Source: Collinsella sp. An307 (GTDB lineage Bacteria; Actinomycetota; Coriobacteriia; Coriobacteriales; Coriobacteriaceae). Taken from it: a stretch of 64,000 bases of DNA. Position 1 is the first letter of the stretch, and each line of letters begins with the position of its first letter. This document shows positions 5,276 through 36,547 of this stretch, one piece after another. The notes below the pieces were generated by a model that did not search any database, had not been told where the DNA came from, and was given only the letters and a program-made list of their open reading frames with translations. The stretch is from contig NZ_NFIP01000005.1 in assembly GCF_002161805.1 (NCBI RefSeq), positions 62,001-126,000 of the forward strand. The letters are read 5' to 3'. A program made the translations under genes and the position numbers.

Positions 5276-5280
5276 TGCAT

Positions 5281-5306
5281 ATTTGGGGACGGGGTCGTTT
5301 CGTGCA
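5281..5306 (+). repeat. ATTTGGGGACGGGGTC intergenic repeat, copy 1
   Basis: ATTTGGGGACGGGGTC followed by four variable bases and CGTGCA, starting 5 nt after the stop of the large pfl gene. The same string in the same orientation occurs 6 nt after the ispF stop (61103). A related inverted form lies before engB (12009-12049). Function unknown; the position right behind a stop codon suggests an extragenic repeat. Confidence 0.6.
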
Positions 5307-5334
5307 GGGCGGCGGCCCCGGCCCGTGTTAGAAA

Positions 5335-5343
5335 TGTTATGAT
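5335..5343 (+). promoter_or_regulatory. Extended -10 promoter candidate for the glycyl-radical subunit
   Basis: TGTTATGAT matches an extended -10 (TGnTATAAT). It is followed at 5345-5361 by a 7-bp hairpin (GCGCTAT-caa-ATAGCGC) and an AAAGGAG ribosome site at 5370-5375. This would let the small pfl gene be transcribed apart from the large one. No convincing -35 is visible. Confidence 0.45.
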
Positions 5344-5381
5344 TGCGCTATCAAATAGCGCTGCTCGCGAAAGGAGCTTCC

Positions 5382-5633
5382 ATGCAGGTCAAAGACGTGC
5401 CTCAGGCTCAGGCCGATAATCTGGTCCAGATGCTCGACGCCTACACCGAGAAGGGCGGCCACCATCTGAACGTCAACGTGTTCAACCGTGACACGCTGCT
5501 CGACGCGCAGGCTCACCCCGAGAAGTACCCGCAGCTCACCATCCGCGTGAGCGGCTACGCGGTGAACTTCCACAACCTCACCAAGGAGCAGCAGGACGAG
5601 GTCATCAGCCGTACGTTCCACAACGCGATGTAA
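5382..5633 (+). CDS. grcA: Stand-alone glycyl-radical domain of pyruvate formate-lyase
   Basis: 83 residues carrying the whole C-terminal module of pyruvate formate-lyase: '[22 protein letters not shown]', the '[16 protein letters not shown]' radical loop with Gly58 as the expected radical site, and the end '[14 protein letters not shown]'. ATG at 5382 follows AAAGGAG. In E. coli this sequence is the last part of PflB; GrcA/YfiD is a spare copy that repairs oxygen-cleaved PflB. Here the neighbouring PflB lacks the module, so this protein must supply it in trans for the enzyme to work (inference). Followed by a strong terminator at 5700. Confidence 0.9.
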
Positions 5634-5699
5634 CGTCGCGTAACGCGCCGTAGAACCATCCTCACATAGGGCAGCCTCCGCCTGCGCGGGCGGGGGGAT

Positions 5700-5736
5700 A
5701 CCGGCCATGGCTTTAGAGCTGTGGCCGGTTTTTTTG
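5700..5736 (+). terminator. Intrinsic terminator of the pfl cluster
   Basis: ACCGGCCA ... TGGCCGGT stem with an inner GCT-ttag-AGC stem and a run of seven T. The sequence is nearly repeated at 6355-6388, on the other side of the toxin-antitoxin genes. Confidence 0.85.
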
Positions 5737-5802
5737 TTAGGAAGTGATGCATAAACAAGTACGGAAACAGTACATAAATGAGATATCATTAAGGAGCTTG
5801 GA

Positions 5803-6069
5803 ATGGAGTTTGAATGGGACCCAGTAAAGAGTGCGGCTAATTACAAGAAGCATGGAGTGAGTTTCACGGAGGCGCTTGAGCTATTCGGCGATCCCGAACG
5901 AATCGAGGTGGTGCTTTCATATCAAGAGGAGCGGCGCTTTGCGGTGGTGGGAATGGTGCGCGGGAAACATTGGACTGCCATCATTACCTATCGTGAGGGG
6001 CGAACAAGAATCATCTCAGTGAGGCGTTCACATCCCAAGGAAGAGAGGGCATACGATGAAAACCTTTAA
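5803..6069 (+). CDS. brnT: BrnT family (DUF497) toxin
   Basis: 88-residue protein beginning 'MEFEWDPVKSAANYKKHGVSF' and containing 'GKHWTAIITYREGRTRIISVRRS', the diagnostic ends of BrnT, a RelE-fold type II ribonuclease toxin. AAGGAG lies just upstream of the ATG. The gene overlaps the antitoxin start by 14 nt, as is usual for brnTA. The pair is probably autoregulated by the BrnA ribbon-helix-helix domain; TATCAT at 5784-5789 is a possible -10. Base composition is lower in GC than the neighbours, which fits acquired DNA. Confidence 0.9.
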   Translation: MEFEWDPVKSAANYKKHGVSFTEALELFGDPERIEVVLSYQEERRFAVVGMVRGKHWTAIITYREGRTRIISVRRSHPKEERAYDENL

Positions 6070-6334
6070 CAGCTCACAAGAGATGGAGCGCGTCTTTGAT
6101 GAGGGTGAGGAGAGTATCCTTGATTATGCCGATATGTCTACGCTAAAGAAGCCCGGAAAAGCGGCGACGAGGCGTGTGGCCCTCGATATGAACGCCTCGG
6201 CAATCGCGCGACTGGATTCTTTTGCAGAGCGTTATGGTGTGTCGCGGCAGGCGCTGATCAAGGTGTGGTTGATGGAGCGCATGGATGAAGAAGATGCGCG
6301 AGCGGCTCATTTGAGCGCTCCGTCAGTAGTATAG
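6056..6334 (+). CDS. brnA: BrnA family antitoxin
   Basis: 92 residues. An acidic N-terminal arm ('ERVFDEGEESILDYAD', residues about 11-26), expected to cover BrnT, leads to a C-terminal ribbon-helix-helix domain ('KAATRRVALDMNASAIARLDSFAERYGVSRQALIKVWLMERM'-like, residues about 35-75) that should bind the operon's own promoter. It overlaps brnT by 14 nt and is followed by a terminator. No key element of the family seems missing, so the module is likely functional. Confidence 0.88.
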   Translation: MKTFNSSQEMERVFDEGEESILDYADMSTLKKPGKAATRRVALDMNASAIARLDSFAERYGVSRQALIKVWLMERMDEEDARAAHLSAPSVV

Positions 6335-6354
6335 TTTGTCTTGCAGAACCTATT

Positions 6355-6388
6355 GCCGGCCATGGTTTCACAGCTGCGGCCGGTTTTT
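6355..6388 (+). terminator. Terminator after brnTA, near-copy of the pfl terminator
   Basis: GCCGGCC ... GGCCGG stem, inner CAGCTG, then five T. It differs from the terminator at 5700-5736 at only a few positions, mostly in the loop, so the toxin-antitoxin pair is bracketed by two copies of one terminator. Confidence 0.8.
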
Positions 6389-6536
6389 GAAAATAGATGC
6401 AACTCAATGAAAACAATTCGACAGTTTTTCATTTGTCCCTCCACAGGGCAGCGAATGCCTTAGGATTGTCGCCTTGTGTGGAAAAGATGCGCACCGGCGG
6501 CTTTGGCGGTCGCTGGCGTAGTTGATGGGGGAGCAG

Positions 6537-7760
6537 ATGGCCCAAAGTGTTGAGCGCGCGGGTTCGCGTGAGGGAATGAGCGCGACGCAGTGGTTGCCGC
6601 TCGTAGGCATGACGTTTCTGGCGTTTGTCTTCAATACGTCCGAGTTCATGCCGGTGGGGTTGCTCACCAACATCGCGGAGTCCTTCTCGCTTTCCGAGGC
6701 GGCGGCCGGCATCATGATTTCGGTCTACGCATGGGGCGTTATGCTGTTGTCGCTTCCGCTCATGGTTGCGGCCTCGCGTTTCTCGTTCAAACCGCTGCTG
6801 CTCGGTGTGGTGGCGCTTTTTGTCGCGGGGCAGGCGTGCTCGGCCATCGCACCCACCTTCGAGCTGCTAACGATAGCTCGCCTCTTGGTGGCTGCCGCAC
6901 ATGCCGTCTTCTGGGCGATTGCACCGGTTATGGCTACGCGCATCGCTGGGACCCGCCATGCGGCGCTCGCCCTCAGCATGATTGCTACGGGTACCTCTAT
7001 CGCCTCGGTGGCGGGTATGCCGCTCGGTCGCGCCATCGGGTTGGCGCTGGGCTGGCGCATGACCTTTGGCTGCGTGGGCGTTATCGCCGCCGTGCTTTTG
7101 GTCTATCAGGCTATGGTGTTCCCGCAGTTGCCGGCAGGTGAGCCGTTTAGCCTGCGCCGACTGCCCGAGCTTCTGGGCAACCGCGTGCTCGTGGCGCTCT
7201 ACGTGGTGACGATGTGCCTTGCCACCGGCTACTACGCGGGCTACGGCTACATAGAGCCCTTCCTCGGCCAGATCGGCGGGTTCGATGCGGCGACCACCAC
7301 GTTGCTCCTTACGGTGTTTGGTGCAGCGGGGTTTGTGGCGAGCTTCCTCTTCGCCCGGTTCTTCGACGGGCACCGCTATCACTTTGTGGGGACCATGATC
7401 GTGGGCTTTACGGCGATGCTCTTCTCGCTGCAGGCAGCAGCCGCATCGCTTGCAACCACGCTGGCGGTCTGCCTTTTGTGGGGCATCTGCGGTACGGCGT
7501 TTAACATCGCGCTGCAGGCGATGCTGATGGACGCCGCGCCCGAGGACGACGCAACGGTGGCGATGGCCATCTACTCGGGACTTTTCAACTTTGGTATCGG
7601 CACGGGCACGGCCATCGGCGGCGTGGTGGTGTCTAGCATCACGCTCTCGGCCATTGGCTATGCGGGCGGCGCGATTGCGCTGGCAGGCGTGGTGCTCGCG
7701 ATTGGCTGGCTCTTTCGCTTGGACCGCGCAGCCCGTGCTGCTCGTGCGGGGCGTGAGTAG
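6537..7760 (+). CDS. sotB: SotB-like major facilitator exporter
   Basis: Twelve-helix MFS transporter of the DHA1 group. It matches E. coli SotB/YdeA throughout: 'FNTSEFMPVGLL' in helix 1, 'AHAVFWAI', 'GMPLGRAIGLALGWRMTF' and 'YYAGYGYIEPF'. SotB exports sugars such as arabinose and IPTG in E. coli; related proteins export other small molecules. I use the ATG at 6537 because GGGGGAG precedes it; the ATG at 6525 is also in frame but has no ribosome site. The gene is convergent with the PanE-family gene across a long palindrome. Confidence 0.88.
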   Translation: MAQSVERAGSREGMSATQWLPLVGMTFLAFVFNTSEFMPVGLLTNIAESFSLSEAAAGIMISVYAWGVMLLSLPLMVAASRFSFKPLLLGVVALFVAGQACSAIAPTFELLTIARLLVAAAHAVFWAIAPVMATRIAGTRHAALALSMIATGTSIASVAGMPLGRAIGLALGWRMTFGCVGVIAAVLLVYQAMVFPQLPAGEPFSLRRLPELLGNRVLVALYVVTMCLATGYYAGYGYIEPFLGQIGGFDAATTTLLLTVFGAAGFVASFLFARFFDGHRYHFVGTMIVGFTAMLFSLQAAAASLATTLAVCLLWGICGTAFNIALQAMLMDAAPEDDATVAMAIYSGLFNFGIGTGTAIGGVVVSSITLSAIGYAGGAIALAGVVLAIGWLFRLDRAARAARAGRE

Positions 7761-7800
7761 CCGATCGTGCAACTCTGCGTATTTTGGCGCTTGGATTTCT

Positions 7801-7941
7801 AAAAACCCGCGAAGTAAGTGGCCTTCTAAGGAGACGGCATCCTAAGCCGTGAGAATCCCTGCAAAATCCCAGATAACAACAGCGTGCGTCATGCGGCGCT
7901 GAGGGGATTTTGAAGTGGCCCACTTACTTCGCGGGTTTTTT
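7801..7941. other. Large structured palindromic element between convergent genes
   Basis: Perfect 21-bp inverted arms at 7801-7821 and 7920-7940 (AAAAACCCGCGAAGTAAGTGG and its complement) enclose a hairpin ACGGC-atcctaa-GCCGT (7834-7850) and a second stem CAAAATCCC/GGGATTTTG (7862-7870 with 7904-7912) that contains AGCG...CGCT. T-tracts flank it on both strands, so it can terminate both converging genes. The extra stems exceed what a terminator needs. Confidence 0.7.
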
Positions 7942-8009
7942 GTCTACATCTACACCGCCTTTGAGCGGTTTGGCGTCTCTTCCGTACGGCGCGGCGATGC
8001 GGGCTGGCG

Positions 8010-8924
8010 CTACCAGCCGCTTTCGATTTCGCGAATGCGCCGGTAAAGCCATTCGTTGGTGGGCACGAGGATGCCGTGTTTGGCGGCGAGGCGGCAGATA
8101 GTGCCCGAGAACTCCTCGACCTCGGTACGGCGGCGCGCGATGCGGTCCTGCGCCATCGAGGGCATCCCGGTGGGATCGAGCGAAGCAATAAGGGTCGCCA
8201 TCTCGGTGAGGTCGGCCTCGTTCATCGCGACGCCTTCCGCCTGTCCGACGGCGAGCGCCTCACGCATGGCGGCGATAAAGCAGCGGTTCTGCTCGCTATC
8301 AGGCTCGCTTGCGCTGCCGTAGGTGCCGCCATAGGCCATGCAGGTCTGATTGATGCCAACGTTTAGCATAAGCTTCACCCACATGCGGCGGCGCGGGTCC
8401 GCCTCCACCACATGCGAGACGCCGGCACGCGTGTAGAGGTCGTCGAGCGCCTCGACCACGCCCGCTGCAGTGCCCGGCGCGGCACCAAAGCGAATCTCGC
8501 CCGCGTGCGAGAACGTGAGCGCGCCGTCGAGGTAGACGGCATCCATGCCCTGGCAGATGCCGAGCACGGTATGCTCCCAGCCGTAACGCTCGGCAATGCG
8601 CTCCTCACTCGTAATGCCGTTGAGCAGCGACTCGATGACCGTGTGCGGCCCCACCAGCGGCGCCATGCTCTCGATTGCTGCATCGAGACCACTCGCTTTA
8701 ACTGCAAGAATTACCAAGTCAACTGACTCAGCCTCGCTCATGGGAATCGTGCGCACGGCAAGCGGCGCGCCGTTCACCGTCACCTGCTCGCCGGCGTGGC
8801 GGTAGAAGCGCTTGTCGTCCATGGCAAAGACCACGGCGTCTGTCCCCAGATGCTCTGCCATGATGCTGCCGTACATGAGGCCCACGGCCCCGCGTCCCAC
8901 GATGGCCACGCGTTCGATCTGCAT
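8010..8924 (-). CDS. Ketopantoate reductase PanE/ApbA family protein
   Basis: NAD(P)-dependent reductase, 304 residues. The Rossmann start 'VAIVGRGAVGLMYGSIM' carries GxGxxG. 'LAVKA' and 'SLLNGITSEE' match the cofactor and substrate region. The C-terminal helical domain has 'KLMLNVGINQT' (catalytic Lys, conserved Asn) and 'PSMAQDRIARRRTEVEEFSG' (conserved S-M-x-x-D). Family members reduce 2-dehydropantoate to pantoate for CoA synthesis, but many ApbA-like proteins act on other 2-oxoacids, and no other pantothenate gene is near. It lies downstream of the cyclase-family gene on the same strand, 210 nt away. Confidence 0.88.
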   Translation of the reverse strand: MQIERVAIVGRGAVGLMYGSIMAEHLGTDAVVFAMDDKRFYRHAGEQVTVNGAPLAVRTIPMSEAESVDLVILAVKASGLDAAIESMAPLVGPHTVIESLLNGITSEERIAERYGWEHTVLGICQGMDAVYLDGALTFSHAGEIRFGAAPGTAAGVVEALDDLYTRAGVSHVVEADPRRRMWVKLMLNVGINQTCMAYGGTYGSASEPDSEQNRCFIAAMREALAVGQAEGVAMNEADLTEMATLIASLDPTGMPSMAQDRIARRRTEVEEFSGTICRLAAKHGILVPTNEWLYRRIREIESGW

Positions 8925-8949
8925 GCGAATCTCCCTTGCTCCGATGGTT

Positions 8950-9011
8950 TGCGCCCCGACGCGCCCCCGCGCCCCGATGCGTCAGCGCCCTCGCGTCCCG
9001 ACGCCCCGCCG
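8950..9011. repeat. Degenerate GCGCCCCGACG tandem repeats
   Basis: Within the 210-nt gap between the cyclase and reductase genes there are about five imperfect, partly overlapping copies of a GCGCCCCGACG-like unit. The rest of the gap shows nothing recognisable. Likely slippage-prone filler. Confidence 0.45.
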
Positions 9012-9134
9012 CCCCGACGACTGGAAGGGGCGGGGACGTTTGGGCTGCCTTAGGAGGTGCGACGCAGTGTCGTCCGCCACGTGCGTCGCCCGCGCTGGCC
9101 GGGGTGCCGCGCAGCGGCACAGCCTCGCTCCACC

Positions 9135-10031
9135 TTACGCCTCGACGGGGCAAATGGCAAAGCATCGGGCGGGATAGCCCACGCCGTCGAGCAGTTTGGG
9201 GAATGCGCACACGATGAGCGCCCCGGTTTCGGGGACCATGTCCAGATGGTTCATGACCTCGATCTGAAAGCGGTCCTGCGCCAGGATGTACCGCTCGGCA
9301 GGGTAGGGATAAAAGCCCGCGCGCGTGGTGACGCAGGCGGGGTCGGTGTCAGCCGGTTCGTGCCCGATGGCGCCGATGCCGCGCTGCTCGACAAGCCACG
9401 TGACCGCGTCGAGGTCCCAGCCGGGATAGTGCGGTTTTCCGGCGGAATCCTTGTTCTCGAGGTCGGTCTTGCGCGACCAGTCCGAGCGAAACGCCACAAA
9501 GGCGCCGGCCGGAATGCGCCCGTGCGCGGCTTCCCATGCGATGAGGTCGTCCACGGTGAGGACGAAGTCGGGATCGGCGGCGCATTCTCGGTGCCGATCG
9601 ATAACGCAAAGGGGCATGACGAGGTCAATGGGCTCGATGGCGTCAAGCGCCCGACCGTTGGCCCAGAAGTGGCGCGGCGCGTCCACGTGCGTGCCGTACT
9701 GGGAGGCCACGGTGTAGTCGTAGCAGCGCATGGGCGCCAGCATGTCGTCGGGCGTGCCGGGCAGATAGTCAAACAGAAGCCGGCGCGCGAGGGGCTTGAA
9801 CCCAAACCAGTGCGGGGTCGTGGCGGAGAGCGTGTGGGTAAGGTCGACCCAGCGGTAGCGCGGGCTCTTGAGCTGGGCGACGAGGGGCCAGAGGCTGGGC
9901 GCGGCGCTCGCGGGCGCGCCGGGGTTCAGCGGGGTCTCGGTGCGGGTGGCCGGTGTTGTGGTGCGCGGGCGCGATGCGGGCGCTGCGGCGCGCGATGCGG
10001 CGCGTGTGCGGGCGGTGGTGACGGTGCTCAT
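9135..10031 (-). CDS. Cyclase family protein (kynurenine formamidase-like metal hydrolase)
   Basis: 298 residues. The family motif is 'YGTHVDAPRHFW', where the two His and the Asp of HxGTHxDxPxHF bind metal; later 'GAIGHEPADTD' and 'IEVMNHLDMVPETGALIVCAFPKLLDG' match the conserved end. The core begins at about residue 62 ('RWVDLTHTLSATTPHWFGF'). Before it is an extension of about 45 residues rich in Ala, Thr and Arg, which is unusual. ATG at 10031 follows AAAGGACCGCCC. Members hydrolyse N-formylkynurenine, isatin or related cyclic amides; the substrate here is unknown. Confidence 0.82.
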   Translation of the reverse strand: MSTVTTARTRAASRAAAPASRPRTTTPATRTETPLNPGAPASAAPSLWPLVAQLKSPRYRWVDLTHTLSATTPHWFGFKPLARRLLFDYLPGTPDDMLAPMRCYDYTVASQYGTHVDAPRHFWANGRALDAIEPIDLVMPLCVIDRHRECAADPDFVLTVDDLIAWEAAHGRIPAGAFVAFRSDWSRKTDLENKDSAGKPHYPGWDLDAVTWLVEQRGIGAIGHEPADTDPACVTTRAGFYPYPAERYILAQDRFQIEVMNHLDMVPETGALIVCAFPKLLDGVGYPARCFAICPVEA

Positions 10032-10263
10032 GGGCGGTCCTTTCTCGGGAGGGTATGATGGCCTCATCGTAGGAAGGGTTTGTGTCGGGTTCTTTTCGGC
10101 TGCGTTGCGCCTTGAATGGAAACCGGTCGGCAAATCGTCGGATACGGGACGGCAACCTGCCGGATACAATGGGAGCACGACGGCGCCGGTCCAGCGGTGT
10201 CGGCCCCTGCGGCGCCACCACGGCGCCGTCGCGCCAGCGCCGCCCGCGCAGAAGGGAGGCCGT

Positions 10264-11067
10264 ATGGCTCAAATCGAACTCACACCGCAAGGCGACGCGT
10301 GCGAGACGCGGTATGCCCGCGGCCGCATCCATTCGGTGGAGACTATGGGTACGGTCGACGGGCCGGGCATTCGCTTCGTGGTCTTCATGCAGGGCTGCCC
10401 CCTGCGCTGCCTGTACTGCCACAACCCCGACACGTGGGACGCGGGGGCTGCGGCGGGTACCGAGGTCACGGTCGAGCAGCTGGTGGAGGAGTTCGAGAGC
10501 AATCGCCAGTTCTACAAGAACGGCGGCATCACCGTCTCGGGCGGCGAGCCGCTTTTGCAGCCGGAGTTTCTGGCGGATTTGTTTGCCGCGATGCACGCCC
10601 GATCCGAGGGGCGCGTGCACACCTGCCTCGATAGCTGCGGGTACGCTTTCGACCCGGCGCACCCCGAGCGCACGGCGCGCGTGCTCGATGCCTGTGACCT
10701 GGTGTTACTCGACATCAAGCACGCCGACCCTGCGGGACACCGCGCGCTCACCGGGCGCGACCCGGCGCGTATCTTGGCGTTTGGCGACGAGCTCGCTCGC
10801 CGCAAGATTCCGGTGGTCATCCGCCACGTGGTCGTTCCCGGTTATACCGACACGCCTGAGGAATGTGAGGCCTTGGGGCGCCTAATCGCACCGTGGCAAA
10901 ACGTTGTGGGTCTCGAGATGCTGCCCTACCATACGCTTGGCGTAGTGAAGTACGAGAAGCTGGGACTTACCTATCCGCTTGACGGCGTGCCCGAGATGGA
11001 CAAGGCACGCATCCCTGAGCTGCGCGCAGCAGTGATGCGCGGCATGCGCGCGGCGCGCCAGGGATGA
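10264..11067 (+). CDS. pflA: Pyruvate formate-lyase-activating enzyme (radical SAM)
   Basis: 267 residues, cytoplasmic. The cluster motif 'CPLRCLYCHNPDTWD' is CX3CX2C and follows 'GTVDGPGIRFVVFMQG', typical of glycyl-radical activases. 'GGITVSGGEPLLQPEF' is the GGE SAM-binding region. It reductively cleaves S-adenosylmethionine and abstracts hydrogen from the glycine of pyruvate formate-lyase, here presumably Gly58 of the separate small protein. ATG at 10264 is preceded by GGGAGG. It stands 4.6 kb from the pfl genes behind three unrelated genes instead of next to them. Confidence 0.93.
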   Translation: MAQIELTPQGDACETRYARGRIHSVETMGTVDGPGIRFVVFMQGCPLRCLYCHNPDTWDAGAAAGTEVTVEQLVEEFESNRQFYKNGGITVSGGEPLLQPEFLADLFAAMHARSEGRVHTCLDSCGYAFDPAHPERTARVLDACDLVLLDIKHADPAGHRALTGRDPARILAFGDELARRKIPVVIRHVVVPGYTDTPEECEALGRLIAPWQNVVGLEMLPYHTLGVVKYEKLGLTYPLDGVPEMDKARIPELRAAVMRGMRAARQG

Positions 11068-11168
11068 CAGACTATCTTGACCCTCGAGCTGGAACTTCCG
11101 TGGGGCCGCGGCACCGCGCGCACGGTTTTGGTATTGTCAGGGGCAGAAAACCAACCGATAGGAGAGCC

Positions 11169-11990
11169 ATGACGCCAACCATCGCCATCATCGGCGCGCT
11201 CGAAAAAGAGGTGCGCCAGATTTATACCGAGGTCGACAACGGTACGGTCACCGAGGAGGCCGGCCTCAAGATCGTGGGCGGCGCCTACCACGGTTTCAAC
11301 CTCGTTGCCACAACGGCGGGCATGGGCACCGTAAATGTGGCCGCGGCCACACAGCACCTCATCAGCGTTTACGGCGCCAACGCCGTGATCTTCTCCGGAA
11401 TCGCCGGCGGACTTAACCCGGCGCTCCACATCGGCGACATCGTGGTGGGCGAGCGCCTGCGCTACCTCGACACCGATACGGCGCTCATTGCCGAGTCCGC
11501 GCCCGGGCTTGAGGAATTCGCCTCGACCGACTACCTCGTCGACGTTGCGGAGGAGACTCTCAGAGCGTGGGGTTTTGTCTCGGCGGACCTTACGGGCGAG
11601 GCTCTTGACGCCGCGGTGGAGGTGGCGGGCGACTCTCCCTTTGCGCGCTTCCGCCGCGAGGGTGAGGCGGCCGACCCGCGCCGCTACCTGCGGGGCACCA
11701 TCGCTACCGGCGACCGCTTCTGCACGGGTGCGGAGATGCGCGCTGAGGTCATCGCGGCGACGCAGGCGGACTGTGTGGAGATGGAGGGGGCCGCGGTGGC
11801 ACACGTCACCGCCAAGAACGGGGTCGACTGCCTCGTGCTCCGCGCCATCAGCGACAACTGCGACGAGGCGTATGACGCTCTTTGCGACCGCGAGTTTGAC
11901 CTCGACGAGTACGCCCGCACCGCGAGCTCGCTTACCTTGGCCATCGTCCGCCGCGTTGCGGCAAAGCTCGGTCTTTCGCGCGAAGGCTGA
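11169..11990 (+). CDS. mtnN: 5'-methylthioadenosine/S-adenosylhomocysteine nucleosidase family
   Basis: 273 residues. Begins 'IAIIGALEKEVRQI', with the catalytic-base Glu of this family, then 'IFSGIAGGLNPALHIGDIVV' and the purine/ribose site 'VEMEGAAVAHVTAKNGVDCLVLRAISDN'. Cleaves methylthioadenosine and S-adenosylhomocysteine to adenine and a thiosugar, in methionine and SAM recycling. It is about 40 residues longer than the usual 230, the extra lying in the middle (about residues 100-175). ATG at 11169 follows AGGAGAG. About 100 nt after pflA; radical SAM enzymes generate 5'-deoxyadenosine, which such nucleosidases can also cleave. Confidence 0.88.
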   Translation: MTPTIAIIGALEKEVRQIYTEVDNGTVTEEAGLKIVGGAYHGFNLVATTAGMGTVNVAAATQHLISVYGANAVIFSGIAGGLNPALHIGDIVVGERLRYLDTDTALIAESAPGLEEFASTDYLVDVAEETLRAWGFVSADLTGEALDAAVEVAGDSPFARFRREGEAADPRRYLRGTIATGDRFCTGAEMRAEVIAATQADCVEMEGAAVAHVTAKNGVDCLVLRAISDNCDEAYDALCDREFDLDEYARTASSLTLAIVRRVAAKLGLSREG

Positions 11991-12008
11991 GTGGCAAGAG
12001 CGCGCGAA

Positions 12009-12049
12009 GCAACCCCGTCCCCCGATACGCTTCGAATCCGTCCCCAGAT
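12009..12049 (-). repeat. GGGGACGG-type repeat, divergent inverted copy
   Basis: Between mtnN and engB. Read on the minus strand it gives CTGGGGACGG, a TTCGAA-containing spacer and GGGGGACGGGGTTG, related to the ATTTGGGGACGGGGTC repeats at 5281 and 61103. It overlaps the likely engB leader. Confidence 0.4.
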
Positions 12050-12059
12050 AGGGAGAACC

Positions 12060-12650
12060 ATGGCAGATTCCATCAACTATCAGCTTGCGCACTTTGTAGC
12101 GAGCTACGGCGCCGTCTCGCAGATTCCCGAGTCCACCGCCCCCGAGGTCAGCTTCGTAGGGCGCTCGAACGTGGGCAAGTCCTCGATCATGAACAAGCTT
12201 TTTGGTCGCAAGGGGCTGGTCAAGGTCTCGAGCACGCCGGGCAAGACCGCCAACATCAACTTCTTTGAGGCGGATGGCGTGCACTTTATCGACCTGCCGG
12301 GCTACGGTTTCGCGCGCCGTTCCAAGGCGGAGCGCGAGCGCTGGGCGCGCCTCATCGGCGACTTCTTTGAGAGCGAGCGCAGCTTCAACCTGGTGGTCTC
12401 GCTTGTGGATATCCGCCACGACCCGAGCGCGCTCGACCACCAGATGATTGAGTATCTGCAGGAGAACGAGTTCAGCTTCATCGTGTGCCTCACCAAGGCA
12501 GATAAGCTCAGCCGCCCCAAGCGCGTGCAGCAGGCGGCCGCCATCCGCAAGCAGCTTAACGTCCCGGCGGAGGACATCATCGTCACGTCGGCGGAGGACG
12601 GCACGGGCATCGCCGAACTCAAACGAGTGATTGCCGAGCGCTGCCTGTAG
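12060..12650 (+). CDS. engB: Ribosome biogenesis GTPase EngB (YihA/YsxC)
   Basis: 196 residues, the normal size. G1 'GRSNVGKSSIMN', switch region 'KVSSTPGKTANINF', G3 'DLPGYGFA', G4 'TKADK' and G5 'TSAEDG' are all present. Small cytoplasmic GTPase needed for late assembly of the 50S subunit. ATG at 12060 is preceded by GGGAGAACC. It lies 70 nt after the nucleosidase gene and may share its transcript; downstream is a 230-nt gap with an inverted-repeat element. Confidence 0.95.
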   Translation: MADSINYQLAHFVASYGAVSQIPESTAPEVSFVGRSNVGKSSIMNKLFGRKGLVKVSSTPGKTANINFFEADGVHFIDLPGYGFARRSKAERERWARLIGDFFESERSFNLVVSLVDIRHDPSALDHQMIEYLQENEFSFIVCLTKADKLSRPKRVQQAAAIRKQLNVPAEDIIVTSAEDGTGIAELKRVIAERCL

Positions 12651-29174: not shown

Positions 29175-30095
29175 ATGAAGAAGCAGCAGATCGGCATGAC
29201 AGATATCGAGGCGTCGCGCGTGGCGCTCGGCGTTATGCGCCTGGCGGGCCGCTCGCCCAAAGAGGCGGCGGCGACGGTTTCTGCCGCGCTCGAAGCGGGC
29301 ATCGACTTCTTTGACTCGGCGGATATCTACGGCGCGGGCGCGAGCTCGCGCGCGCTCGGGCAGGCGCTGCGCGACCTCAACGTCCCGCGTGAGAACGTTA
29401 TCCTCCAGACAAAGGCAGGTATCGTGCCGGGTGAGCGCTACGATTTCTCGCGCGAGCACCTTGAGCGCGCGCTCGATGCGGAGCTGGAGCGCCTGCAGAC
29501 GGACTACGTAGACTTCTTCTTGCTTCATCGCCCCGACCCCTTGGTTGATATCGACGAGCTTGCCGATACGCTCGGCGCTATGGTCGAGGCGGGCAAAGTG
29601 CGCCAGCTGGGTGTGAGCAATATGAATCCTTGGCAGATTGACCTCATCCAGAGTGCGCTCGAGGTGCCGCTCGAGGTGAACCAGCTGCAGTTTGGTTTGG
29701 GCCACACGCAGGCTATCGCCAGCGGGCTGCACGTCAACATGGACGATGCGCCGGCGACGGAGCGCGGCGGCGGCCTTATTGAGTGCGCGCGCCTCTACGG
29801 CATGACCATCCAAGCGTGGAGTCCCTTCCAGTTTGGTACCTTTGCGGGCTGCTTTATTGGTCACCCGGACTTCCCAGAGCTCAACGCCGCGCTCGATGAG
29901 GTGGCTGAGGCACATGGCACCACGCCAACGGCGGTGGCGACGGCGTGGATCTTGCGGCATCCGGCGAACATCCAGGTCATCTGCGGCTCCATGTCGCCGG
30001 ACCATATCCGCGATGCCGCCGCGGGCGCCGACGTGGAGCTCACCCGCGCGGAGTGGTGGCGCCTCTATCAGGCGGCGGGCAACGACCTGCCCTAA
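29175..30095 (+). CDS. Aldo/keto reductase
   Basis: 306 residues, YdhF-like. Catalytic tetrad in order: 'DSADIYG' (Asp and Tyr), 'ILQTKAGI' (Lys) and 'FFLLHRPDPL' (His). NADPH-binding C-terminal region 'VICGSMSPDHIRDAA'. Cytoplasmic TIM barrel that reduces an aldehyde or ketone; substrate unknown. The gene stands 80 nt before the TIR/methyltransferase gene in the same direction, with a weak GCGGGG...CCCCGC hairpin between, so cotranscription is possible but unproven. Confidence 0.92.
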   Translation: MKKQQIGMTDIEASRVALGVMRLAGRSPKEAAATVSAALEAGIDFFDSADIYGAGASSRALGQALRDLNVPRENVILQTKAGIVPGERYDFSREHLERALDAELERLQTDYVDFFLLHRPDPLVDIDELADTLGAMVEAGKVRQLGVSNMNPWQIDLIQSALEVPLEVNQLQFGLGHTQAIASGLHVNMDDAPATERGGGLIECARLYGMTIQAWSPFQFGTFAGCFIGHPDFPELNAALDEVAEAHGTTPTAVATAWILRHPANIQVICGSMSPDHIRDAAAGADVELTRAEWWRLYQAAGNDLP

Positions 30096-30175: not shown

Positions 30176-31570
30176 ATGGAGCAGTTTGATATCTTCATCT
30201 CGTTCAAGAATACAGCCGAGAATGGTCTTCAGACGGAAGATGCGGCGCTTGCGGAGCAGGTGTACAAGGAGTTTTGCGCGCGCGGCATCAGCACGTTTTA
30301 CAGCAACATCACGCTGCTGCGGCTCGGCGAGAGCGTCTACAAGCGTTCGATTGACAAAGCGCTTGACACGGCAAAGATCCTCATCGTCATAGGGACCGAC
30401 CTCGCCTACATCAAATCGCGCTGGATTCGCTACGAGTGGGAGAGCTTCCATACCGATGTTCTGGACGGGGTAAAGGACGGCGAGATCATCACCTTTACCA
30501 GAAACATCAATCCGCGTTCGCTGCCGCGGGCGCTGAGGAGCTACCAGAACTGCAACGCCGACGACATGGGCATAAGCGCGTTTTGCGATTTTGCCGAGAA
30601 CGCGCTCAAGCGGTTCCAGGGGCAGTCGGCCGAAGGGCTCGACGAGGGCATCCCGCCAATGCCGGAGGTCCACTCCTTTGCGTCGATTCCCGCGGTCGAC
30701 CGACGCCATAAGTCGGTATACTCCTCCACCTACGCTGATGAGGTTCGCAGGCTTAAGATCCAGGCGGCAAACTCCGCCTCGTCCGACCAGATCGCCCTTG
30801 ATTATCTGCGCGACGAGGGCGTGCTGCGCGATCATATGGTCGTGCTCGACGCGGGCTGCGCCTACGGCTACGTTGCGCGTGACCGCTTTGCCGCGCTCGA
30901 CTGCGTGGACAAGATCCTCTGCATTGACAACAACGCCGAGGTCATTGACCGTGCGCGCGAAATGCATGCAGACGAGCCCAAGATGGCCTTTGAGGTTATC
31001 GACCTGGAGGCGAAGGATTTTAGCAAGCGTTTCCGGGCGCTTCTGGATGCACAGGGCATCGACAAGGTTGACATCATCTTCTCGGCGCTCACGCTGCATC
31101 ACCTGAAAGATCCCAACAAGGTGCTGCGTAATCTGAGGCGCTTCCTTTCCCCGAAGGGGCGCATTATCCTGCGCGGTTCAGACGATGGCAGCAGGCTCTG
31201 CTACCCTAAGAAGGAGCTGATGGACCAGATCATCCAGAAGAGTCTGACGGCCGAGGGCGTGTCCGATCGCCTGAATGGGCGCAAGCTCTTTACGCAGCTG
31301 GCCGACTCGGGGTATCACCAGATTCGCATCTTCAGCAACATGAAGGACCTGAGCAGCATCGACTTCGATGATCGCGAGGCGCTGTTCCGTGAGAGCTTTG
31401 CCTACCGCAGCGATTACTTTACCAAGGCCTACGAGCGCGACCCCTCAGACATGCAGCGGCGCAACGACTGCGAGTGGATGGAAGCCGCCCTCGAGCTTTT
31501 TGAAGAGCAGTTCTACGAGCGGAACTTCTGGTATTGCGAGTACGACTACATAGCCGTTGCCGAGCGGTAG
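30176..31570 (+). CDS. TIR-domain/class I methyltransferase fusion protein
   Basis: 464 residues. Residues 1-145 look like a TIR domain: box 1 'FDIFISFKN', 'GISTFYSN', 'YKRSIDKALDTAKILIVIGT', then 'SRWIRYEWESF', in which Glu87 occupies the place of the catalytic Glu in NAD-cleaving TIRs. Residues 205-340 form a SAM-dependent methyltransferase: motif I 'VVLDAGCAYGYVA' (223-235), acidic motif II 'ILCIDNNAEVIDRA', motif 'IIFSALTLHHLKDP' and 'FLSPKGRIILRG'. A C-terminal helical part of about 125 residues is unassigned. ATG at 30176 follows GGGGGAAG. TIR proteins often act in immunity or NAD signalling; with the methyltransferase the role is open. Confidence 0.8.
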   Translation: MEQFDIFISFKNTAENGLQTEDAALAEQVYKEFCARGISTFYSNITLLRLGESVYKRSIDKALDTAKILIVIGTDLAYIKSRWIRYEWESFHTDVLDGVKDGEIITFTRNINPRSLPRALRSYQNCNADDMGISAFCDFAENALKRFQGQSAEGLDEGIPPMPEVHSFASIPAVDRRHKSVYSSTYADEVRRLKIQAANSASSDQIALDYLRDEGVLRDHMVVLDAGCAYGYVARDRFAALDCVDKILCIDNNAEVIDRAREMHADEPKMAFEVIDLEAKDFSKRFRALLDAQGIDKVDIIFSALTLHHLKDPNKVLRNLRRFLSPKGRIILRGSDDGSRLCYPKKELMDQIIQKSLTAEGVSDRLNGRKLFTQLADSGYHQIRIFSNMKDLSSIDFDDREALFRESFAYRSDYFTKAYERDPSDMQRRNDCEWMEAALELFEEQFYERNFWYCEYDYIAVAER

Positions 31571-31636: not shown

Positions 31637-34600
31637 TTATTCTGGGCTCTTGAGGGCTTCGACCATGTTTGTGCGGTCGAGCATGCGGTTGGTAATGAGA
31701 CTCACCGCGATGGCGAACACAATAGAGAACGCCGCGGCAAGGGCGAAGCACCAAAGTCCCACCTCCACGTCGAAGTAAATCGACGGCATCTTGAGGATGT
31801 AGGTGAAGCTCTCGGAGAGCGCCCAGCCGGCGGGCAGGCCAACGAGGATGCCGATGACCGAGAGCAGGAGCGTCTCCTTGTTGATGTAGGTGCGCACCTC
31901 CCGCTTGCGGAAGCCGAGGACCTTGATGGTGGCAATTTCGCGTTCGCGCTCGCCGATGTTCACGGTCGAGAGCGTGAAGAGCACCACGAATGCAAGTCCC
32001 GCAGCTAGAGCGATGACCACGTAGACCACCACGTTGATGAGGGTGAAGCTTTCTTCGAACTGCTCATGCATCTTGGCGACGCTTGTGATGGAGAGGAATT
32101 CCTCGTCGTCCTCAAGCGTGTCGGCAAAGGCGCGCTGCTCCTCTTGCGTGCCGTCGAGGTGGGCAAAGAAACCGTTGAGCTCAAGTGGGCCAAAGAGCTC
32201 CTCGTAGGCGGCTTCGGTCATGTAGACGGCGTTGCCGAGGTAGTTGCGCGTGATGGCAGCAATGGTGGGCTCCGCCTCGTCAAGAGCGCTCGTGGTTATC
32301 TCAACCGTGTCGCCCGCGTCAAGGCCAAGCACGGTGGCGGCGTTGTTGGTGATGACCACACCTGCGTCCTCCAGATCGATGTGCTCGCCTGAGAGCGCCT
32401 CAAGCGAGACGTACTCGTCAATGGAAGACCCGGTGGGAATGACGTAGAGCTGCATGCTCTCCTTGGCGCCGTCGAACTCAACCGTCACGTTGTCCACGCC
32501 GATAGGCTCGATGCTCGTCACCTCGGGCGCATCCTCTAGCATGGCAAGACACGTGTCGTAGTCCTCTGCCATGGTTGCCGCCATGAGGTCGTAGCGGTAA
32601 ATCTGCTCGTACTGGCGCGGAGCGAGCGACTCGACGGTGTTCTTGATGGAGAAGCCGCAGATGAGAAGTGCCGTGCAGCCCATGATGCCAAAGACCGTCA
32701 TGAAGAAGCGCTTCTTGTAGCGGAAGAGGTTGCGTGCGGTGACCTTGTTGAGGAAACCCATGCGTCGCCAGATGAACGTGATGCGCTCGAGGAAGATGCG
32801 CGAGCCGGCGCGCGGCGCCTTGGGTCGCATGAGGGTGGCGGGCGTCTCGGCAAGTACGGCGCGGCAACTCAGGAAGGTCGAGCCGCCGATGCCAATCACA
32901 AAGGCAGCGATGCCGAGGACGGCGTAGAAGAGGTTGAAGTTAAGGCTGAAAAGCGGGAGCAAATACATCGCCTGGAAGATGTAGAAGAGGATGTAGGGGA
33001 TGAGGACAAAGCCTGCGATGTCGCCGATGATGCCGCCGATGAGCGCGGCGGAGACCGAGTAGACGAGGTACTTGGAGAGCACGCGGGCCTTGGAGTAGCC
33101 AAGCGCCTTGTACAGACCGATGAGGACGCGCTCCTCGTCAACCATGCGGGTTGCCGTGGTGAGGCTCACGAGGATGGCAACGATGAAGAAGATGACGGGG
33201 ATGATGCGGGCGATGGCCTCGATGGACGATGCATCGGAGTCGACGCTCGAATAGCTGCCCAAACTTGAGCGGTCCTGCACGTACCAGGTCGCCTGTTCGA
33301 CGGCTGCCACCTGGTCGCGTGCGTCGGCAATCTGCTCGGCGGCATCGGCGCGCTCCTCTTCGAGCGTGGCGCGGCCCTCGTCGAGCTCCGCCTGGCCGTC
33401 GGCGATCTGCGCGAGCGCGTCGTCGAGCTGGCGCTGGGCATCGTTAAGCTGGGCAAGGGCGTCGGCGCGCTGTCGGATGAGCTCCGCCTGACCCTCAGCA
33501 AGCTGCTTTTGCCCGTCGGCGAGCGCGGCAGCGTTTGTGTCGATGAGCGCTTGCGCCTGCGTGAGCTCGTCGTGGGCGCTCCAAAGCGCCGCCCATCCGT
33601 TATCGATGAGTTTCTGGGCCTCTGCAAACCCGGCCTCTGCCTGGGTCTTTGCTGTGGCGATGCCCTCTTCGAGGAGAGGGAGGGCTGCCTGTGCCTCGGT
33701 AAGGCCGGCTGCCGCCTGGATGCGTCCGGAGGCGAGTGCTGTGGCGTTCTGGTCGCTTTCGGGATTAGCGAGCTGGGCAAGGCCAGCTTGGAGGTTGTCG
33801 ATGCCCGTCTGCTGTTCAGTAAGTGCGGTTTGCTGCACTTCGAGCTGGGTGAGTGTGGCGTTGGCAGTTTCAAGCGTCTTCTCGAGTGTCGCCTTGCGTT
33901 CCTGGGTTTCTGCAAGCTTGGCAGCGGGCTCTTCACGCTCGGTCTGAAGCGCGGCAAGGTCGCTCTCGTAATCGGGGTCGCTGGGGTCGAGCGCGGCAAT
34001 CTCGGCATCAATCGTGTCGAGTTTGCCTTGCAGCTTTTCGATGTCGTTACCGAGGGTCTCGAGCTCGCCGTTGGTAAGGGAAATCAGGGAGTTCGCCTGC
34101 TCTATGCCGGCGTTGAGCTGCGCGAGAAGGCCCTCGAGCGTTGTATTGATACTGGGGGCAACGGTATCGAGCGTCTGCAAGCTTTCGGTAACTGCCTGCG
34201 AGAATGCGCTGACGGCCTCTGCCGTTGCTGCCTCGTCTGCACCGTTGGCGTTCTGGACGCCCGCCCAGCTGTCGTTGAGTTTAGTCGCGCACGCTCTCAG
34301 TTGCGCGGCCACGATAGTGAGAGCAGATTGGGCGTCTCCTGCGCCCGTACCAGCGTTCCATCCGCCTACGCCGCCGATGCCGCTGCTTGTGGTGTTGTCA
34401 ATTGCGTCCTCGGCCGCGTCTCCCTCGTTGCCGGAGCCGCCTGAGGCAGCGCCCATGCTCTCGATGCCGTCCGCCAGCTGCGTAAGACCCCCGGCAAGAG
34501 TGGACACGGTGCCATCGAGCTCGGCGATGGTCCCCGGCAGGGTTTCGACGGCGTTGTTCACCTCGTCACGTTGTGCCTCAAGCCCAGGGAGTGTGGTCCC

Positions 34601-35842
34601 GTAGAACGTCTCCCGCTGCGCATCGAACTCCGCTTGGCCGTCGTAGAGCTCGCGCTCCGCGGCAGGGAGTTGGGCGTTGTATGCGGTGATGCCCTCGGCA
34701 AGCTCCGCGCGCCCCTGCTCGAGCTCTGCCATGCCCTCGGCAAGCGTCAGGCGATTCTGATTTATGGTCGCCTGAGCATCGTCAAGCTGGGCGAGGGCGT
34801 CCGCGCGTTGGGCATCGAGCTCGCGCTGGCCGTCGAACACCTCGGCCAAGCTCTCGTTGAGCGTTTTCTGTCCGTCGGCGAGCTCTTGCTCGGCGTCGGC
34901 AATCTGCTCGGCGGCATCCGCTTCGGCCTCGTCAATCTCGGCATAGGCGTCGTTTTTGATGGCCTCGGTACGGGCGCGTTCGCGCTGCGGCGCCAAGTCC
35001 TCTACGCGGTCCTGGACCTCGTCCACCAGTGCCTCATATTCTGCCGAATAGGCGGAAAGGTCGTCGGTCCCCGCAACGGAGAGGTAGGCGACCGTGTAGG
35101 CCTCGGGGTCCACCACGGCGCTCTTGTCCACAAAGAAGGTGTAGTCGGAGGAGGTGGCGGCGCGGAAGGCGACGGGACCCTCGGGCTGGGTGATGTTCGC
35201 CGGGTCGATGATGGTGCCGACGATGGTGTAGGTGCCGCCCGCTACGACGGGGTCGCCCTCGTCCTCGGTATCGTCTGCGGCGGACTCGTCCTCATCTTCA
35301 TCGGTGCCGGTTTCGAGGTCGGATAGGCCCGTGGGGTCCTCTTGCGGAGTCTCTTCCAGCTCGACGGTGTCGCCGATGCTCTTGCCCGCCTCGTTGAGGT
35401 AGTTCTGCGTGACCGCAATCTCGCCCGGGGCGTCCGGTAGCTCGCCCTCCACCAGATACGGCTCGTTGATGCCGGAGTCGAGCAGCGCTTTTGCGGCAAC
35501 GGTTGCGCGCAGCCCGTCAACGCGCGTGTAGGTCTCCTGCTCGTAGCCGCCTTCGACCGTCTCAACGCCTTCAATGGCGGCGAGCCCGGTAAGGTCGTCC
35601 TCCACAAGACCTAAGGTCGACTGCACCGATATATCGAACAAGTTCTGCCGCGCGTACAGGTCGTCTGCCGCTTGGCGCAGGTCGATGCATGCCATCGACA
35701 GGCCGGTGAGCATGGTCGCGCCCAGCGCAGTGATGGCAACGATCGAGAGGAAGCGCTTTTTGCTCTTGGCGATGGTGCGCAGCGTGTCTTTGGTGAACGC
35801 CGCCGGGCCGTGTGCGGATGGTGTCGTGCGGTGGCCTGCCAT
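31637..35842 (-). CDS. Giant FtsX-type ABC permease with coiled-coil extracytoplasmic domain
   Basis: 1401 residues. N-terminal helix (about 30-52, 'RFLSIVAITALGATMLTGLSM'), a MacB-like periplasmic domain interrupted by an acidic insert (about 170-200), then about 600 residues of Ala/Gln/Glu-rich coiled coil (about 285-890) split by a Gly/Ser stretch near 470-500. FtsX helices follow at about 910-1040, a second extracytoplasmic domain (about 1090-1280), and final helices at about 1290-1390. Such proteins in Gram-positives pair with a LolD-like ATPase, encoded here 3 nt upstream. Substrate unknown; possibly cell-wall or lipid remodelling. 26 identical bases recur at 33321 and 34893 within the coil-coding DNA. 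Confidence 0.88.
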   Translation of the reverse strand: MAGHRTTPSAHGPAAFTKDTLRTIAKSKKRFLSIVAITALGATMLTGLSMACIDLRQAADDLYARQNLFDISVQSTLGLVEDDLTGLAAIEGVETVEGGYEQETYTRVDGLRATVAAKALLDSGINEPYLVEGELPDAPGEIAVTQNYLNEAGKSIGDTVELEETPQEDPTGLSDLETGTDEDEDESAADDTEDEGDPVVAGGTYTIVGTIIDPANITQPEGPVAFRAATSSDYTFFVDKSAVVDPEAYTVAYLSVAGTDDLSAYSAEYEALVDEVQDRVEDLAPQRERARTEAIKNDAYAEIDEAEADAAEQIADAEQELADGQKTLNESLAEVFDGQRELDAQRADALAQLDDAQATINQNRLTLAEGMAELEQGRAELAEGITAYNAQLPAAERELYDGQAEFDAQRETFYGTTLPGLEAQRDEVNNAVETLPGTIAELDGTVSTLAGGLTQLADGIESMGAASGGSGNEGDAAEDAIDNTTSSGIGGVGGWNAGTGAGDAQSALTIVAAQLRACATKLNDSWAGVQNANGADEAATAEAVSAFSQAVTESLQTLDTVAPSINTTLEGLLAQLNAGIEQANSLISLTNGELETLGNDIEKLQGKLDTIDAEIAALDPSDPDYESDLAALQTEREEPAAKLAETQERKATLEKTLETANATLTQLEVQQTALTEQQTGIDNLQAGLAQLANPESDQNATALASGRIQAAAGLTEAQAALPLLEEGIATAKTQAEAGFAEAQKLIDNGWAALWSAHDELTQAQALIDTNAAALADGQKQLAEGQAELIRQRADALAQLNDAQRQLDDALAQIADGQAELDEGRATLEEERADAAEQIADARDQVAAVEQATWYVQDRSSLGSYSSVDSDASSIEAIARIIPVIFFIVAILVSLTTATRMVDEERVLIGLYKALGYSKARVLSKYLVYSVSAALIGGIIGDIAGFVLIPYILFYIFQAMYLLPLFSLNFNLFYAVLGIAAFVIGIGGSTFLSCRAVLAETPATLMRPKAPRAGSRIFLERITFIWRRMGFLNKVTARNLFRYKKRFFMTVFGIMGCTALLICGFSIKNTVESLAPRQYEQIYRYDLMAATMAEDYDTCLAMLEDAPEVTSIEPIGVDNVTVEFDGAKESMQLYVIPTGSSIDEYVSLEALSGEHIDLEDAGVVITNNAATVLGLDAGDTVEITTSALDEAEPTIAAITRNYLGNAVYMTEAAYEELFGPLELNGFFAHLDGTQEEQRAFADTLEDDEEFLSITSVAKMHEQFEESFTLINVVVYVVIALAAGLAFVVLFTLSTVNIGEREREIATIKVLGFRKREVRTYINKETLLLSVIGILVGLPAGWALSESFTYILKMPSIYFDVEVGLWCFALAAAFSIVFAIAVSLITNRMLDRTNMVEALKSPE

Positions 35843-35845
35843 GGT

Positions 35846-36547
35846 TTACCACTCGATATCCGCGATAGGGGTGGGGTGCTCGTTCAAGGTCATCTCGGTC
35901 ACCTTGCCGCTCTTGAAGCGGATGAGGCGGTCTGCCATGGGGGCGAGCGCCGAGTTGTGCGTGATGATGATGACCGTGATGCCGTCGCGTCGGCAGGTGT
36001 CTTGCAAAAGCTGCAGGATCTGCTTGCCGGTCACGTAGTCGAGGGCTCCCGTGGGCTCGTCGCAGAGCAGGAGCTTGGGGTTTTTGGCGATGGCGCGCGC
36101 GATGGAGACGCGCTGCTGCTCACCGCCGGAGAGCTGAGCGGGGAAGTTGCCCATGCGCGCCCCAAGGCCCACTTTGGCAAGGGTCTCGGCGGCGTCGAGG
36201 GCGCCCGGGCAGATCTGGCTCGCGAGCTCGACGTTCTCGAGCGCCGTCAGGTTGGGGACGAGGTTGTAGAACTGAAAGACAAAGCCCACATCGGTACGTC
36301 GGTATTCGACGAGTTCGGCCTCCGAGGCACTCGATATGTCGCGCCCGTCCACCGTGACAGTGCCGGAGGTAAGCGTGTCCATGCCACCCAGGATGTTGAG
36401 CGCTGTGGTCTTGCCGGCGCCCGATGCGCCAAGGATTACGGCGAGCTCGCCCCGCTCGACGGTAAAGCTCGCGCGATCAAGCGCGTGGATGAGGGTCTCG
36501 CCTGAACCGTAGGCTTTGATTACGTCTTTGAACTCGATATATGCCAT
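35846..36547 (-). CDS. ABC transporter ATP-binding protein (LolD/MacB-like)
   Basis: 233 residues. Walker A '[12 protein letters not shown]', Q-loop '[19 protein letters not shown]', signature '[15 protein letters not shown]', Walker B '[12 protein letters not shown]', H-loop 'IIITHN'. All features are of the LolD/MacB/FtsE class that couples to FtsX permeases. The stop is 3 nt before the start of the giant permease, so the two are translationally coupled. Divergent from a TetR-type regulator, its likely repressor. Confidence 0.93.

Follow-up and report, generated by a model that had tools for sequence, protein, structure and literature searches.

The window, a 64,000-nucleotide stretch of the Collinsella sp. 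An307 genome, carries a gene in which a TIR domain and a class I SAM methyltransferase module are joined in a single chain. The open reading frame (30176-31570, forward strand) encodes 464 amino acids plus a stop codon, has no internal stop, starts with ATG and has a GGGGGAAG-type ribosome site upstream. The features of the locus are as follows.

29175..30095, + strand: aldo/keto reductase, the upstream neighbour and left edge of the insertion site
30176..31570, + strand: TIR-methyltransferase fusion gene, 464 aa plus stop (ORF, Pfam and orthologues)
30176..30619, + strand: TIR domain, residues 1-148 (Pfam TIR_2, AF2 model and fold matches)
30302..30304, + strand: Ser43, at the position of AbTir Asp167 (TIR-profile alignment)
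30422..30436, + strand: WxxxE, Trp83 to Glu87, aligned to AbTir W204/E208, predicted catalytic position
30620..30709, + strand: linker, residues about 149-178, disordered (pLDDT mostly <50) and fast-evolving
30710..31567, + strand: class I SAM methyltransferase module, residues 179-464 (Pfam and fold match)
30845..30868, + strand: SAM-binding motif I, LDAGCAYG (224-231), family-wide except L018 and L053
31181..31189, + strand: Asp336-Asp337-Gly338 (DDG), family signature after strand 5
31262..31285, + strand: SDRxxGRK signature (363-370); Asp364 and Arg369 invariant in the same seven-fusion alignment as DDG
31637..35842, - strand: FtsX-type permease, the downstream neighbour and right edge of the insertion site

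An earlier note on this DNA had proposed the fusion from the letters and suggested a profile search and structure prediction as checks. Pfam TIR_2 and Methyltransf models both score above their cutoffs within the single 464-aa chain, both halves fold confidently, and the motifs it had read (FDIFISFKN, SRWIRYEWESF with Glu87, LDAGCAYG at 224-231 and ALTLHHL) all occur where it had placed them. No NCBIfam model names the fusion protein, and the methyltransferase matches in that collection fall far under their cutoffs. A chance or misread frame is ruled out by diverged full-length homologues with both domains, by synonymous-biased substitution in both domains and by the confident fold of each half, while an assembly artefact of metagenome-derived genomes is ruled out by two carriers that are isolate-type records (Collinsella sp. 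An268, L015, and DSM 108991, L017). Both halves are under strong purifying selection, with dN/dS of 0.058 for the TIR and 0.043 for the methyltransferase, compared with 0.195 for the linker.

The TIR domain and the methyltransferase module

The open reading frame starts directly with TIR box 1 (FDIFISFKN), and TIR_2 matches residues 6-117 (E 6.1e-7, 30.4 bits, cutoff 28). The TIR was modelled separately because a fold search with the whole model was filled by methyltransferase matches. The resulting AF2 model (pLDDT 90, pTM 0.86) has as its closest solved folds (Z 14-17) RUN1 (16.8), SPARTA TIR-APAZ (16.5), AbTir (15.1; 130 residues, rmsd 2.5) and SARM1. The modelled fold is nearest to active NADase TIRs, a resemblance that alone shows no activity. 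A sequence profile of 14 related TIRs best matched BtTir and AbTir (E 1e-5 and 3e-5, respectively), and its alignment places E87 on AbTir E208 and W83 on W204, with both residues invariant in 14/14 TIRs of the fusion's branch. In AbTir, E208 and W204 are both required for NADase activity, and W204 for 2'cADPR production (PMC11374754). The earlier note had assigned Glu87 to the catalytic position, and the alignment agrees with that prediction; of the two findings that it held would count against it, residues 1-145 do have TIR similarity and the homologues keep the glutamate. Conversely, Ser43 replaces AbTir Asp167 and is likewise invariant in 14/14 TIRs of the branch. Asp167 is needed for the NADase activity of AbTir, which D167A inhibits (PMC11374754). 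The serine lowers the predicted likelihood of NADase activity but does not exclude it, Asp167 not being established as a universal requirement. The fusion shares with AbTir and BtTir the WxxxE motif (W83/E87 at W204/E208), the box 1 serine and the fold, and differs from AbTir in Ser43 and in its C-terminal methyltransferase.

Related TIRs occur in other architectures. Two (L030:1498-2622 and L031:865-1938) are ~40% identical to that of the window and carry different C-terminal parts, and judged from sequence this TIR branch is a mix-and-match effector in Oscillospirales-type genomes. In four further loci (L008, L026, L032 and L033) a zinc-ribbon-like N-terminal segment precedes a TIR of the same branch, followed in some, by eye, by ankyrin-like or RCC1-like repeats; these proteins resemble the PADLOC candidate PDC-S66, a model that the fusion's TIR matches weakly.

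For the C-terminal half, Pfam Methyltransf_31, 12, 11, 25 and 23 all match above cutoff at 217-344 (E 1e-14 to 6e-9), and the closest folds are those of class I enzymes, mostly small-molecule methyltransferases (4VPMT2, Z 20.2; OxaG, 18.9; JHAMT, 18.4; BC2162, 18.0). D225, G227, G231 and D251, the last being the acidic residue after strand 2, are invariant in the full-length fusions aligned. By fold, motif I and acidic residue the module is assigned to the class I SAM methyltransferases and may carry out methyl transfer. Four elements make up the family signature: Ser-x-Tyr immediately ahead of the domain, LDxGCxxG, the DDG that follows strand 5, and SDRxxGRK. The DDG is invariant in 7/7 fusions aligned, among them the DUF4062-methyltransferases described below. 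Motif I reads LDLGSAYG in L018 and is eroded (LDVNVLSTTG) in L053, where a TIR-methyltransferase (1036-2349) retains the DDG signature and is a likely non-catalytic member. This sequence suggests that some member of the family may work without SAM, while most keep the motif, and its combination of an eroded SAM motif with a kept DDG would be expected if the module can act as a recognition part. An eroded methyltransferase domain is also carried by DndH (PMC10853773), which shares with the fusion a methyltransferase-type domain in phage defence and, unlike it, belongs to a multi-gene system.

Distribution and genomic context

The fusion gene is patchily distributed. It is present in 5/9 genomes of the Collinsella-type genus and in 0/58 other genomes of the family, in 3/58 Mediterraneibacter-type species and in 1/397 genomes sampled from the family to which G470 belongs. 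Full-length fusions with 33-74% identity span two phyla, Actinomycetota and Bacillota, the latter through Lachnospiraceae and Oscillospirales, with isolates among the carriers: three Mediterraneibacter-type genomes (~73% identity), Claveliimonas monacensis DSM 108991 (65%) and three Oscillospirales-type genomes (48, 43 and 33%). The window copy has 70% identity to two congeneric copies and 73-74% to those of the other phylum, its GC content is 0.58 against 0.63-0.65 in neighbouring genes, and in two congeners (G004 and G008) the aldo/keto reductase gene lies directly beside the FtsX gene, without the fusion. Together, these sequence comparisons point to horizontal acquisition. No convincing flanking mobile-element repeats were found at the fusion, and the TIR-methyltransferase itself was not found in the phage, plasmid or IMG/VR collections. 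A single fusion clade is not rejected in the TIR tree (p-AU 0.148); in the methyltransferase tree one TIR clade is rejected with L042 and the contig-cut L052 included (p 0.008) and not rejected without them (p 0.31). As the verdict depends on these two sequences, no claim is made on one versus several fusion events.

The neighbours in the window encode threonine synthase, aspartokinase, asd, aldo/keto reductase, FtsX, ABC, MerR, PFK, Ham1 and Dtd, all housekeeping, in keeping with the earlier note's remark that no defence island is evident. The same note would have taken a purely housekeeping context as evidence against its reading; the context is indeed housekeeping, but the empty site in congeners marks this place as a point of insertion and not as a functional setting, and, the gene having been acquired by transfer, the neighbourhood says little about its function. 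The FtsX-type permease (31637-35842) is itself unusual, with 1401 aa and a very long, charged, repeat-like extracytoplasmic insert, and is adjoined by an ABC ATPase (35846-36547).

Other carriers have different neighbours. In the Mediterraneibacter-type locus L012 the fusion adjoins a gene for a 991-aa protein (9445-12417) with an N-terminal TIR and a C-terminal HD domain (HD_3), the long middle region being STAND-type NTPase-like by eye; this gene is absent from the sister locus L013, so the complement of TIR genes next to luxS varies at this site. The L014 fusion closes a same-strand run of five genes (4053-9398), after a stand-alone methyltransferase, a TIR protein with a further C-terminal part, a squalene-hopene-cyclase-like alpha/alpha toroid and a TrpF-like PRA isomerase, and a TIR-WD40 gene lies nearby. 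The combination of TIR, toroid and TrpF is odd. The luxS gene adjoins the fusion on one side in L012 and L013 and on the opposite side in L014. The gene immediately upstream of the fusion in G869, read in the same direction, encodes an MTA/SAH nucleosidase (TIGR01704, 79.6 bits, cutoff 73.8); depending on the start codon chosen, the two genes overlap or are ~30 nt apart. MTA/SAH nucleosidase and then LuxS (S-ribosylhomocysteine lyase) catalyse consecutive steps that clear SAH to homocysteine. Neither gene neighbours the fusion in Collinsella, L017, L018 or G1176, and the SAH-recycling neighbours, found in one genus and one further genome, are a lead and not proof.

Partners of the methyltransferase family and known systems

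The methyltransferase family is also joined to other N-terminal domains. A fusion to a DUF4062-type domain is carried by a Haladaptatus plasmid (L009), the domain being assigned from its resemblance to annotated DUF4062 proteins, and the same type of fusion occurs in two identical IMG/VR contigs (L044 and L045) whose genes for the terminase small subunit, phage tail S and DUF2586 mark a P2-like prophage. The prophage gene (L044:5431-6819) lies in the stretch between the terminase and tail genes. The family is further fused to two other TIR types (G471, L027; G1765, L053) and, in two genomes of the window's order (L006 and L007), to a GNAT-like C-terminal part.

A preprint reports DUF4062 to be the TIR-like NADase of the single-chain Swarozyc system, which aborts phage infection and whose C-terminal auxiliary domain is a phage sensor that binds the phage portal (PMC13174449). 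The relation between TIR and DUF4062 is taken from that work and not from sequence profiles, since the TIR profile compared with the DUF4062 pair gave an hhalign probability of 1.5%, homology not being detectable in this way. The fusion and Swarozyc have in common a single chain, an N-terminal TIR-fold domain, a glutamate at the catalytic position, a C-terminal auxiliary module and a patchy horizontal spread, and the methyltransferase family is itself joined to DUF4062 in L009 and L044. In contrast, the N-terminus of the window fusion is TIR_2, with no Pfam match to DUF4062, and in the auxiliary position a class I SAM methyltransferase replaces the HTH/winged portal-binding domain. By sequence the fusion resembles Swarozyc in layout and, having no DUF4062, is not classed as a member.

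In SPARTA (TIR-APAZ with a short Argonaute), too, an N-terminal TIR with a fold much like that of the fusion (Z 16.5) sits on a larger assembly for sensing, but the fusion has neither APAZ nor Argonaute, with the methyltransferase in their place. MADS also has a methyltransferase-type domain in a phage-defence setting, mad2, though the PADLOC mad2 match covers residues 203-332, the general SAM-binding core only; MADS is a multi-gene system (mad1-8), whereas the fusion is a single gene, and no protein of the mad1-8 cluster is encoded among the ten annotated genes flanking it.

A candidate single-gene defence protein

The observations at hand are a chain with both domains and intact motifs, selection on both halves together, patchy spread and the reuse of the methyltransferase family with other TIR-fold domains. 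To these we give about an even chance of reflecting an anti-phage protein of the abortive-infection type, encoded by one horizontally acquired gene, with the TIR as effector and the methyltransferase as sensor or gate. The N-terminal TIR would cleave NAD+ through Glu87, and the C-terminal methyltransferase-fold module would keep it inactive until a sign of infection, either a phage protein or substrate or an altered SAM/SAH state, triggers the module and lets the TIRs assemble, with NAD+ depletion as the outcome. NADase activity, defence, the phage trigger and the direction of control are all components that we infer, and the sensor or gate position of the methyltransferase is assigned by analogy with the Swarozyc auxiliary domain.

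Several lines of evidence argue for this defence role: the conserved WxxxE and the fold nearest to active NADase TIRs; full-length fusions in two phyla with strong purifying selection on both halves; a defence-like patchy distribution, empty site and low GC; the TIR-HD gene beside the fusion in L012 and the TIR and TIR-WD40 genes near it in L014; and the joining of the methyltransferase family to DUF4062, in a plasmid and a prophage, and to two other TIR types. It is weakened by the housekeeping window, by the lack of a TIR-methyltransferase in the phage, plasmid and IMG/VR collections and by the serine in place of Asp167. The earlier note had offered a self-contained sensor-effector as one possibility; this is the best-supported reading and gains from the joining of the methyltransferase family to DUF4062, once in a P2-like prophage, and the roles that it gives to the two domains are putative.

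Nearly all members retain the SAM motif and D251, which fits catalysis at least as well as sensing. The fusion could be a defence or stress protein with an active methyltransferase tied to SAM/SAH turnover and served by SAH-recycling neighbours. The enzyme would methylate either its own TIR or a molecule from the host or the phage, and SAM loss, SAH build-up or an unmethylated target would free the NADase. The near invariance of motif I, Asp251 and the polar DDG and SDRxxGRK residues is consistent with this, as are luxS beside the fusion in three Mediterraneibacter-type genomes and the nucleosidase gene in G869. We nevertheless consider it unlikely, as the luxS cases all come from a single genus and may reflect one hotspot of insertion, the other carriers (Collinsella, L017, L018 and G1176) have no SAH-recycling neighbour and the SAM motif is lost in L053.

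In Thoeris, a ThsB TIR makes a signal for a ThsA effector, and the fusion has the Trp and Glu of signal-making TIRs, W83 matching the AbTir W204 required for 2'cADPR production. A comparable role, in which a separate effector responds to a cyclic ADP-ribose signal that the TIR produces and the methyltransferase possibly methylates, would suit the nearness of the methyltransferase fold to small-molecule enzymes and the L014 run of methyltransferase, TIR, toroid, PRA isomerase and TIR-methyltransferase. It is quite improbable, since no ThsA-like effector (SIR2-SLOG or other) adjoins the gene in the window or was recognised among the neighbours examined, and ThsB profiles match weakly (E 0.02). 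With no ThsA and a fused methyltransferase, the window fusion is not Thoeris.

Less probable again is a metabolic or modified-nucleotide enzyme acting on NAD and SAM without a phage role, the latter being the other option of the earlier note. The housekeeping neighbours in Collinsella and the similarity of the TIR fold to nucleoside deoxyribosyltransferase/DNPH1 folds could be so explained, but the gene is patchy, transferred and missing from most relatives, and the sister architecture sits in a prophage. A TIR protein directed at the animal host or at competitors is very improbable: the carriers are mostly gut bacteria and gut TIR NADases shape NAD-derived metabolites (PMC9092222), but no signal peptide is visible by eye, the open reading frame opens at TIR box 1 and sister fusions lie in a haloarchaeal plasmid and a prophage.

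A search of the open-licence PMC literature returned no account of a TIR-methyltransferase. The evidence suggests that a TIR NADase-type domain joined to a methyltransferase constitutes an apparently undescribed single-gene phage-defence protein, with the methyltransferase as the likely sensor. More tentatively, and doubtful at present, there may be an immune class in which TIR-fold NADase-type domains (several TIRs and DUF4062) are controlled by one SAM methyltransferase family, immunity reads methylation or the SAM/SAH state, and SAH-recycling genes are functional neighbours. TIR effectors are understood mostly through their infection-sensing partner, and phages disturb methylation or the SAM/SAH balance. 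If correct, a methyltransferase as TIR partner, employed alongside two kinds of TIR-fold NADase-type domain, would represent a new switch for NAD depletion and could tie immunity to methylation or to the SAM/SAH balance. The family is small, each member is a single gene, and one is present in the isolate Claveliimonas monacensis DSM 108991, which makes this role directly testable.
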